A DNA stretch of 64,000 bases from Paeniglutamicibacter gangotriensis Lz1y. Lineage in GTDB: Bacteria; Actinomycetota; Actinomycetes; Actinomycetales; Micrococcaceae. Below, one piece after another: positions 18,327 to 22,806 of this stretch; the first letter of the stretch is position 1, and each line of letters starts with the position of its first letter. Under the pieces are notes generated by a model. The model was not told where the DNA came from and did no database searches. It worked only from the letters and a program-made list of their open reading frames with translations. The DNA is taken from the NCBI RefSeq assembly GCF_000348945.1, contig NZ_AOCK01000009.1, positions 62,001 to 126,000 of the forward strand. Reading direction: 5' to 3'. Both the position numbers and the translations under genes were made by a program.

Positions 18327-20843
18327 CTAGGAGGCAGGGACCACGTTGACGAGCTTCGGTGCGCGCACGATCACCTTGGCGATTGCCGCACCGTCCAGGT
18401 AGCGGATCACACCCTCATCATTCAGGGCCAGGGTCTCGAGGGCCTCGGCGCTGATGTCCGCCGGGACCTGAAGGCGGGCGCGTACCTTGCCCTTGATCTG
18501 CACGACGGCGGTGATGGTGTCTTCGACCAGCAGGGCCTCGTCGACCGTGGGCCAGCCGGCGTTGGCCACCGAGGGCTCGTGTCCCAGGGCAGCCCACATG
18601 TCCTCGGCCGTGTACGGGGCGAAGAGCGAGAGGACGATGGCCACGGCCTCGGCGGCCTCGCGGACCGCCGGATCGCTTGCCCCGGCGCCGGAGTCGATGG
18701 TCTTGCGGGTCGCGTTGACCAGCTCCATCATCTTCGCCACCACAACGTTGAACTTGCCGCCCTCGAGCATGCCTGCCGATTCGTGCACGGCCTTGTGGGT
18801 CACCTGGCGCAGGGCCTTGTCACCGGTGGCCGCATCGACACCCGCTGCGCTGTCCACGTCCTGGGCCATGCGCCAGGCGCGTGCCAGGAACTTCGCCGAG
18901 CCACCCGGGGACACATCGGCCCAGTCCACGTCGTCTTCCGGCGGGGAAGCGAAGATCATGGTCAGACGGACCGCGTCAACTCCGTACTTGTCCAGCTGTT
19001 CGCCCAGGTCAACGCCGTTGCCCAGCGACTTGCTCATGGCCTTGCCGCCGTTGAGCACCTGCCCCTGGTTCAGCAGTGCGCTGAAGGGTTCCTGCACGTC
19101 GATCAGGCCCAGATCAAAAATGACCTTGGTGAAGAAGCGCGAGTAGAGCAGGTGCAAAATCGCGTGCTCAACCCCGCCCACGTACTGCCCGACCGGCATC
19201 CAGTCGCGCACCGCCTGCGGATCGAAGGGACCCTCGGTGTAGTTCGGCGAGACGAAGCGCAAGAAGTACCAGGAAGAGTCCACGAAGGTGTCCATGGTGT
19301 CGGTGTCGCGCTTGGCGTCGGCACCACACTTCGGGCAGGACACGTTGACCCATTCCTCAACGGCCGCCAGCGGGGAAGTGCCCTTGGGGGCCAACTGCTC
19401 CCCGCGCAGGTTCTCCGGCAGGCGCACCGGCAGCTGGTCATCGGGGACCGGGACCTCGCCGCAATCGGCGCAGTGGATGATCGGGATCGGGGTGCCCCAG
19501 AAGCGCTGGCGGGACAGCAGCCAGTCGCGCAGGCGGAAGTTCACGAACTTCTCACCTGTCCCGGCGGCCTCAATGATCTCGATGGCGCGGTTGATGCCTT
19601 CGGTTTTGGGCAGGCCATCCAGTTCGCCGGAGTTCACCAGGGTGCCTTCCCCGGTGGTGGCAATGCCGGAGACCGCGGGGTCTTCCTCGCCGGTGTCCAG
19701 CACCGCCCGCACTGGCAGATCGAAGGTGCGGGCAAAGTCCAGGTCGCGCTGGTCGTGCGCGGGCACGGCCATGATCGCACCGGTGCCGTAGTCGGCCAGC
19801 ACGTAGTCTGCGGCCCAGACCTGCAGCTTTTCGCCGTTGAGCGGGTTGATCGCGTAGCGGCCGGTGAAGACACCGGTCTTGACCCGCTCGGTGGCCTGGC
19901 GCTCAATTTCCGACAGTGCCTTAACCGTTTCCTGGTATTCCTCCAGGGCGGTGCGGTGTTCGTCGGTGACCAGCTCGTTGGCCAGTTCGGCGTCGGCGGC
20001 GACCACGAAGAACGTGGCCCCGTGCAGCGTGTCCGGGCGGGTGGTGAAGACCGTGGTCTTGTGAGCATCTTGGGTATCGGTGGCTTCGATGACGAAGTCG
20101 ACGTGGGCTCCCTCGGAGCGGCCGATCCAGTTCTTCTGCATGGCCAGCACGCGCTCGGGCCAGTGCCCGTGCAGCTCGTCCATGTCATCGAGCAGGCGGT
20201 CGGCGTAGTCGGTGATCTTGAAGTACCACTGGTTCAGCGACTTCTTGGTGACCAGGGTGCCGCAGCGTTCGCACGCGCCGTTGACCACCTGTTCGTTGGC
20301 CAGCACGGTCTGGTCGGTCGGGCACCAGTTCACCGGGTGGTTCTTGCGGTAGGCCAGGCCCTTTGCGTAGAAACGGGTGAACAGCCACTGGGTCCAGCGG
20401 TAGTACTCCGGATCCGAGGTGTGAATGCGGCGGGACCAGTCCGCGGAGATCGCGTAGCGCTTGAAGCTTGCCGCCTGCGTATCGATGTTGGCGTAGGTCC
20501 ACTCCGAGGGGTGGGCGTTGCGCTTGATGGCAGCGTTTTCGGCCGGCAGACCGAAAGAGTCCCAGCCGATCGGGTGCATCACGTCGTAGCCTTGCTGGCG
20601 CCAGTAGCGCGAGACGACATCGCCCATGGCGAAGGCCTCGGCGTGGCCCATGTGCAGGTCCCCGGAGGGGTAGGGGAACATATCCAACACGTAGCGGCGC
20701 TCGGCACTGCCGTCGTCCTTGGGCGTGAAGACCCCTAGCTCGTCCCACACCGGAGCCCACTTGGCCTCCATCGAGTGGAAGTCGTAGGCCGCTGCGGTGG
20801 AATCGTCGTCCGCGGTTTCGGTGCCGGTGGGCTGAGTGCTCAC
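18327..20843 (-). CDS. leuS: leucyl-tRNA synthetase
   Basis: This class Ia synthetase charges tRNA-Leu. GTG 20843 gives 838 residues starting [14 protein letters not shown]; upstream frame codons overlap the leader region and lack similarity. Visible motifs are the HIGH signature HMGHAEAF (about residue 65), an editing domain in the centre with [14 protein letters not shown], zinc-site-like [12 protein letters not shown] and [11 protein letters not shown], and the signature loop [11 protein letters not shown] (about 590), a KMSKS variant. GAAGG lies 13 or so bases before the start. Upstream are an 8-codon leucine-rich leader peptide (20993-21019) and an intrinsic terminator (20941-20966), which suggest transcription attenuation by leucyl-tRNA availability. 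Confidence 0.96.
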
Positions 20844-20940
20844 TATCGTGTTTCGCCTTCTTTTGTCGTGCGCCTGTGGGAGAACGTCTCTTGGCCAGCT
20901 GAGCCGAATGCGTGTGTCGGACCCAAATGCCCCTGACACA

Positions 20941-20966
20941 CAAAAGCCCCTTGGCTATCAAGGGGC
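20941..20966 (-). terminator. attenuator terminator in the leuS leader
   Basis: On the minus strand GCCCCTTG and CAAGGGGC form a perfect 8-base stem with a 5-base loop, followed by TTTTG. It lies between the leader peptide and the leuS start, about 27 bases after the leader stop codon and 98 bases before GTG 20843. This is the expected position for a leader attenuator rather than for the end of a gene. Confidence 0.75.
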
Positions 20967-20992
20967 GGCCGTGCGGGGAGTATCCCGGACGG

Positions 20993-21019
20993 CTAGGTTA
21001 GCAAGAGTGCAACGTTCAT
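20993..21019 (-). CDS. leuS leader peptide MNVALLLT
   Basis: The eight-codon frame ATG AAC GTT GCA CTC TTG CTA ACC TAG encodes three consecutive leucines. TTG and CTA are infrequent codons in such a high-GC genome, which would make a ribosome sensitive to low charged tRNA-Leu. It is followed by an intrinsic terminator and then leuS. A TAGAAT element 7 bases before the ATG would give a leaderless transcript, so no ribosome binding site is needed. This is the arrangement of ribosome-mediated attenuation as known for leu and trp operons. An alternative antiterminator fold was not identified by eye. Confidence 0.7.
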   Translation of the reverse strand: MNVALLLT

Positions 21020-21026
21020 GTGCTCA

Positions 21027-21032
21027 ATTCTA
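21027..21032 (-). promoter_or_regulatory. -10 element TAGAAT for the leuS leader
   Basis: TAGAAT ends 7 bases before the leader-peptide ATG on the minus strand, placing transcription start at or near the A of the ATG. No good -35 hexamer is visible at the usual spacing. Confidence 0.5.
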
Positions 21033-21215
21033 CCGCACGATGCGTGCTCGGTGCGGGTTCATGTCCGTGACCCGCGTCGTGGGGCCTCTCGGCGGCATCA
21101 GGCCGCGGCCAGCTGCCGGTACCGCGTACCGCTTGGGGTGTTCTCACCGCACACGGCGGCGGCGCGGCGCATCGCTGCCCATCTGACTCCCGCACCCGGG
21201 TGCTGAAGCATGGAT

Positions 21216-21245
21216 TCGGGCCGTCCGCGGAGGCGGACGGCCCGA
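21216..21245 (-). terminator. hairpin after glpK
   Basis: TCGGGCCGTCCGC and GCGGACGGCCCGA form a perfect 13-base stem around GGAG/CTCC. It begins 46 bases after the glpK stop. No T-run follows, so it could be a non-canonical terminator. The rest of 20844-21291 holds the leuS leader and no other gene. Confidence 0.6.
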
Positions 21246-21291
21246 GGTTCTTGCCATATTCGTCAACTGCGCATGGCGCCGGGGCGGGGAG

Positions 21292-22806
<1,515 letters not shown>

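Follow-up and report, generated by a model that had tools for sequence, protein, structure and literature searches.

The window, that is, the whole 64,000-nt stretch of DNA that was analysed, carries on its minus strand the leucyl-tRNA synthetase gene leuS (18327..20843) and, upstream of it, a compact leader that would control this gene. The 838-aa product of leuS scores 961.7 bits against TIGR00396 (leuS_bact; cut-off 548.4), and its start was placed at the GTG at 20843, rather than at a longer listed start, because its relatives align from this GTG. The leader, on the same strand, opens with TAGAAT (21027..21032), a -10-like sequence predicted to be its promoter element; a scan of 20700-21400 with the sigma-70 consensus found no promoter. 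After a 7-nt spacer (TGAGCAC) follows the ATG (21019-21017) of a short frame, MNVALLLT, which ends at a TAG stop (20993..21019 in all). Its remaining codons read AAC GTT GCA CTC TTG CTA ACC TAG (21016-20993), including three successive Leu codons (CTC 21007-21005, TTG 21004-21002 and CTA 21001-20999) and the stop at 20995-20993.

Two hairpins separate this frame from leuS. The first, hairpin A (20968..20993), has a predicted bottom stem of GCCGT/ACGGC, and it begins 5 nt past the last Leu codon, with the final G of the leader's TAG as its first base. A single base lies between it and the second, an intrinsic terminator T (20942..20966), in which the stem GCCCCTTG-ATAGC-CAAGGGGC (20966-20946), scored as eight pairs around the loop ATAGC, runs into TTTT (20945-20942). 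The leuS GTG begins 99 nt past the last T of this tract, with 98 nt in between. An earlier note on this DNA had already given TAGAAT, the 7-nt spacing and the eight codons with CTC TTG CTA, correct to the base when read against the sequence, and its 8-base hairpin with TTTT ahead of leuS is confirmed by the terminator score and the TIGR00396 match; hairpin A, a conserved element between leader stop and terminator, was absent from it. Its remark that no T-box signature is visible agrees with Rfam, which had no match of any family at the gathering threshold in the whole window and no T-box among the five matches obtained for 20780-21290 at E up to 10; the other Rfam families likewise gave nothing of note.

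The arrangement is unusual for this DNA. When both strands were scanned for ATG or GTG frames of 5-24 codons with TANNNT 5-8 nt upstream, three successive Leu codons and a terminator at most 100 nt from the stop, the window held exactly one such array, the one before leuS, and 25 first-order Markov random sequences of window length held none. The fold of 21024-20930 is more stable than all 200 shuffled versions (z -3.39). Furthermore, the terminator pattern GCCCCTN{4,14}AGGGGCTTT has one match in the 4.32-Mb genome, at this site.

Several features beside the terminator were recorded. Directly after its stem, the sequence CTTTTGTGTGTC (20935-20946, minus strand) is strongly conserved in the alignment of Micrococcaceae leaders and resembles TTTTTCRTGTC of other families and genes. 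A conserved TTTTGTGTGTC 3' of the terminator was considered as a general terminator signal and rejected; GGGGCTTTTNNRTGTC occurs once genome-wide, here. RNA that reads through the terminator could form a further hairpin upstream of leuS, GTGTGTC/GACACAC, at about 20908-20943 (minus strand). The Pfam family PF22617 had no match in this organism's genome, a result that carries no information on the leader.

Conservation and distribution of the leader

A search with the LeuRS protein supplied relatives of the locus, of which the best 80 loci were kept, mostly from Micrococcaceae together with other Actinomycetota. In 52 of them a script detected a leader, defined as a short frame containing one or more Leu codons and accompanied by a -10-like sequence and a terminator. 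The presence of the -10 in relatives is not independent evidence, as frames were selected for having TANNNT 5-8 or 5-9 nt ahead of their start; independently of this choice, the LeuL2 leader of S. lividans is reported to be transcribed leaderless (PMC8079986). Forty-four sequences, the window included, were aligned (L002, L004-L009, L035 and L061 were left out), and 99.4% of the 528 cells that make up the 12 pairs of A and T are paired. Changes on both sides are seen in five of the 12 pairs. None of 500 shuffles reaches the observed pairing and covariation, and shifting the pairing partners abolishes the signal. The five bottom pairs of hairpin A form in every cell (100%), and three show changes on both sides; seven pairs of T form in 99.0% over the 44 sequences, two of them changed on both sides. 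Such conservation, established by sequence comparison, is stronger evidence for the reality of the element than the chance scan.

Run on the 80 loci at E<=0.01, a model built from this alignment (R1) matches 5' of leuS, on the same strand, in 53, of which 43 are training sequences and 10 not (L007, L008, L009, L010, L023, L035, L048, L061, L064 and L077; the match in L064 extends into the LeuRS-aligned region). In its own genome R1 finds this site alone, even at E up to 10. The other 27 loci, including Kocuria, Rothia, Micrococcus and Yaniella loci, have no R1 match at E<=0.01; among them, four Glutamicibacter-like loci give weak matches (E 0.03-0.12), and L047 and L079 are uninformative because their contigs begin less than 80 nt from the LeuRS match. 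The Leu codons, whose conservation the earlier note had proposed as a check, are conserved in the leuS leaders of relatives, with the exception of four Glutamicibacter-like leaders with one Leu codon. These four (L002, L004, L005 and L006) have a -10, a short frame and a terminator, and an example of their peptides is MHFQRNLG; the switch looks decayed or retuned there.

Beyond the LeuRS relatives, R1 was run against 149 genomes of the order at E<=0.001 and matched 52; at E<=0.01 it matched 27 of 396 genomes of the phylum. Both searches used stricter filters, which lose weak matches. Of 42 loci checked, all 35 with E<=4.4e-9 carry the LeuRS motif MFPYPSG on the strand of the match, about 240-415 nt past its start. 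The seven weaker loci, which come from six genomes of the phylum search, are without this motif, and the number of phylum genomes with a leuS leader is therefore put at 21 of 396. Twenty further matches of the order search, comprising weaker ones and second sites, lie before leuS (13), ilvB (six) and cimA (one); the downstream gene was inspected in 40 of the 58 matches listed for that search. The ilvB genes of L107 and L119 were identified by NCBIfam and the citramalate synthase gene of L109 by TIGR00977. Eleven matching loci belong to one family whose genomes measure 6-10 Mb, and nine of them have exactly the leader MRAVRLLLSEPR, which is, letter for letter, the LeuL2 leader of Streptomyces lividans TK24 leuS given in PMC8079986; by this published peptide the genomes presumably belong to Streptomyces.

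The sensing codon and the spacing of hairpin A

In 90 of 99 leaders the last of the Leu codons is CTT, and in the 51 loci of the LeuRS search used for a codon test, a set that leaves out the window locus, it stands there in 45, against 1.7 expected from the codon usage of leuS in the same loci. The window has CTA at this place, a codon that makes up 0.3% of the Leu codons in those 51 leuS genes.

In most leaders hairpin A keeps a nearly constant distance from the last Leu codon. In minimum-energy folds of 53 leaders picked without R1, its first base lies 5 nt past this codon in 42 and 4 nt past it in three, and the gap between A and T is 0-1 nt in 50 of the 53; the leuS leaders are homologous, and these counts are not independent events, the shared spacing being partly shared descent. 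In the set from all sources, whose R1-added loci were found with a model that itself contains the spacing geometry, a stem finder placed the start of A at 5 nt in 73 of 98 leaders and at 4 nt in 14; A and T are 0-1 nt apart in 81 of the 98. It returned 11, -4, 7 or -2 nt in eight of the 98 (L012, L021, L022, L015, L016, L018, L114 and L095); for the first six of these the minimum-energy fold gives 5 nt, and the count of 73 was left unchanged. A stem of at least five pairs occurs at the place of A in 45 of 53 leaders, compared with 2.3% of shuffled segments.

The position of the stop codon allows two anchors to be told apart. The 5-nt start is found in 43 of 55 leaders whose stop lies one codon past the last Leu codon and in 26 of 32 whose stop lies four past it; being alike for both, it indicates that A tracks the Leu codon and not the stop codon. 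Measured along the sequence, between 25 and 63 nt separate the last Leu codon from T in 45 leaders; hairpin A varies in length, and its two junctions mostly stay fixed. The spacing rule would also predict which codon does the sensing.

The same geometry recurs before two other genes. A search of 24 genomes from the family of L109 found leaders like its own in 13, and 12 loci (L148-L159) were fetched. All 12 leaders precede cimA, and in all 12 the last regulatory residue is Ile; hairpin A starts 5 nt after the Ile codon in 10 and 3 nt after it in two. Their peptides include VAHPALLIT and MMPTSVLIID, and the hairpin is flush with the terminator. The leaders before citramalate synthase genes are candidates for an isoleucine attenuator of cimA, for which a literature search whose reach excluded most subscription papers found no publication. 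Before ilvB, where the leaders (MQIILLVVIERG is an example) were found by the leuS model, A lies 5 nt past a Val codon, or in one leader a Leu codon, in five of six (L102, L105, L107, L111, L113 and L119); the stem finder gave no good stem for the sixth. In three of the five (L105, L111 and L119), hairpin and terminator share 2 nt. Citramalate synthase makes an isoleucine precursor, and ilvB serves valine, leucine and isoleucine. By sequence comparison, the cimA and ilvB leaders provide a partly independent check of the 5-nt spacing.

Folding of the leader and the proposed mechanism

Equilibrium folding with ribosome masks was rejected as a proof of switching. For the full leader it predicts T at every ribosome position in 48 of 53 rows, with a probability near 1 throughout; T is improbable in at least one state in five rows (L002, L004, L035, L061 and L071), and its probability of 0 in all states of L002 and L004 is possibly an artefact of the choice of terminator pairs. 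The E. coli trp leader, used as control, likewise showed no switch in the drawn equilibrium structures. This procedure was replaced by folding of truncated RNA, cut before the 3' arm of T with the ribosome masked; these folds and the complementarity comparison below omit L002, L004, L005, L006, L009, L030, L035 and L061, and the truncated-RNA results use no ilvB row, three of which (L102, L105 and L111) began at a wrong ATG.

In E. coli trp, the truncated RNA reproduces the classical behaviour: the 5' arm of T is 0.71 paired upon stalling at the Trp codons and 0.27 at the stop. The leuS leaders behave otherwise. When the ribosome waits at the last Leu codon, pairing of the T 5' arm averages 0.09 (45 of the 53 leaders) and is 0.02 in the window, compared with a mean of 0.39 at the stop codon; the arm is less paired in the stalled state, opposite to a classical switch. 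Hairpin A opens as the ribosome advances: in the window its 3' arm is paired to 0.99 while the last Leu codon occupies the A site, to 0.58 after one more codon and to 0.38 at the stop, and the means over the 45 leaders for the same three positions are 0.94, 0.68 and 0.53. The leuS leader carries codons for the very amino acid that its gene handles, as a trp-type attenuator does. In silico, with E. coli trp as positive control, no antiterminator sharing bases with the terminator was found in it. The folding check for a competing antiterminator, which the earlier note had named, came out against one of the overlapping type.

Very probably the leader attenuates transcription of leuS in response to leucine, as an actinobacterial switch of the LeuL2 type. 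It has the features of that type, namely successive Leu codons directly before leuS, an intrinsic terminator between them and a likeness to Streptomyces leaders. The leucine attenuator that the earlier note had put forward is well supported by its Leu codons, terminator and position, which are conserved in the R1-matching relatives and have a published Streptomyces version; an overlapping antiterminator was not found.

In the mechanism that we propose, transcription would start at or next to the leader ATG, giving a leaderless message on which a ribosome could load immediately. When charged tRNA-Leu is plentiful, this ribosome would clear the three Leu codons, reach the stop and cover the 5' arm of A; T would then form, and transcription would end before leuS. 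When charged tRNA-Leu is scarce, the ribosome would halt on a Leu codon. With its start 5 nt past the last of these codons, hairpin A would lie just outside the ribosome and so be free to fold. About 5 nt past the A-site codon is the closest that RNA structure comes to the bacterial ribosome, whose helicase site lies near +11 from the P site; at this closest approach A could form with the ribosome on any Leu codon and would open once the ribosome advances. Folded A, ending 0-1 nt before T, would take up the slack between ribosome and T, so that T would need to close inside RNA polymerase against the ribosome; it would fail to do so, and leuS would be transcribed. As the 5' arm of T is not captured and surplus complementarity is missing, A would act by position. 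That A is a ruler which lets the stalled ribosome block T is a tentative reading. Equally tentative is the wider reading that a set of actinobacterial amino-acid attenuators represents a distinct design without base competition, in which such a ruler would be common to leuS (Leu), cimA (Ile) and ilvB (Val/Leu).

Equally likely as the ruler step, and thus also tentative, is that hairpin A is itself the antiterminator: folded flush with T, it would hamper closure of the terminator within the RNA exit channel, whether a ribosome is present or not. Hairpin A would be stable enough for this role (the segment from the Leu codons to T has a mean of -20.5 kcal/mol and T of -14.2 in the 45 leaders), it is flush with T in the leader sets, and a ribosome at the stop lowers the pairing of its 3' arm in truncated RNA from 0.94 to about 0.5; however, A and T have no common bases in most leaders (a 1-nt overlap occurs in eight of 98), and folding predicts both together.

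A classical trp-type attenuator, whose overlapping antiterminator escapes the energy model as a pseudoknot, triplex or tertiary pairing, is a less likely explanation. Antiterminator hairpins have been described for Streptomyces leuS in the accessible part of PMC1262725, modelling of the S. venezuelae trpE attenuator needed RNA triplexes according to the available text of PMC4833913, and in the window the leader codons pair somewhat better with the T 3' arm than shuffled ones do (-7.9, against -5.0 with sd 2.0). Across leaders, however, this pairing is no better on average (mean z -0.22), and the segment from the Leu codons to T shows no excess complementarity to either T arm in 45 of the 53 leaders, the mean z of +0.58 and +0.52 against single-base shuffles being weaker than chance.

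That leucine plays no part, the leader being constitutive with a terminator that lowers leuS expression, or leuS being controlled through Rho, translation or RNA decay, is very improbable: in some relatives the Leu codons are indeed fewer or the element cannot be recognised, but the rare codon enriched at the last Leu position, the spacing tied to that codon instead of the stop, and the matched amino acids before cimA and ilvB all speak against it.

Relation to known leader systems

A literature search that reached few subscription papers found no publication on leuS attenuation in Arthrobacter or Micrococcaceae; under the same limits, it found none on a stalled ribosome that sterically blocks a terminator. 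More leuS cases may be contained in the survey of attenuation in amino-acid and aminoacyl-tRNA operons by Lopatovskaya et al. 2010, cited in the available part of PMC4833913.

Among leader RNAs of amino-acid genes in Actinobacteria, T-box leaders and the LEU element of leuA serve comparable genes. The window leader differs from the former in having no Rfam T-box match, and from the latter, going by the published description, in its gene and structure: PMC1262725 presents the LEU element as a pseudoknot that lies before leuA. With E. coli trp it shares the logic of a stalled ribosome and a terminator before the gene, but the 5' arm of T, held there while the ribosome is on the Trp codons, is left nearly free in the leuS leaders.

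The ilvB1 leader of M. tuberculosis has a short frame with branched-chain codons and a terminator, its induction is lost on changing the regulatory codons, and a ribosome at the stop codon has been proposed to prevent its antiterminator, which can be likened to the window leader; these points are taken from the available text of PMC13236596. In contrast to the window, which is known from sequence alone, ilvB1 concerns another gene and other amino acids, uses mutually exclusive structures and has experimental support, as far as that text goes. For ilvB and leuA of S. coelicolor, leader-codon changes did not behave as in classical attenuation, as stated in the accessible sections of PMC1262725. 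If true, the ruler design could explain why attenuator components are reported missing in many actinobacterial leaders, and it would offer a simple rule for leaders described without such components: a hairpin 5 nt past the sensing codon and flush with the terminator.

The closest counterparts are the leuS leaders of Streptomyces. Attenuators of leuS were predicted in 2005 in S. coelicolor and S. avermitilis, according to the accessible sections of that report (Seliverstov 2005, PMC1262725), and LeuL2 of S. lividans TK24, a leaderless frame followed by a hairpin and a U run, was found by RNA-seq, as described in the available part of PMC8079986. As far as these sources go, they share with the window a short frame, leaderless (a prediction in our case), three Leu codons, a hairpin, a terminator and leuS, and the loci found by the model, which was made from leaders of Micrococcaceae and some other Actinobacteria, include ones that encode exactly the LeuL2 peptide. 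The window differs from them in that MNVALLLT stops one codon past its last Leu codon and that this codon is CTA, not CTT, and its lineage lies outside the published Streptomyces cases found. The leuS leader is, by sequence comparison, a relative of a switch already known in Streptomyces, and with it this synthetase feedback switch would reach beyond Streptomyces into Micrococcaceae and further actinobacterial families.
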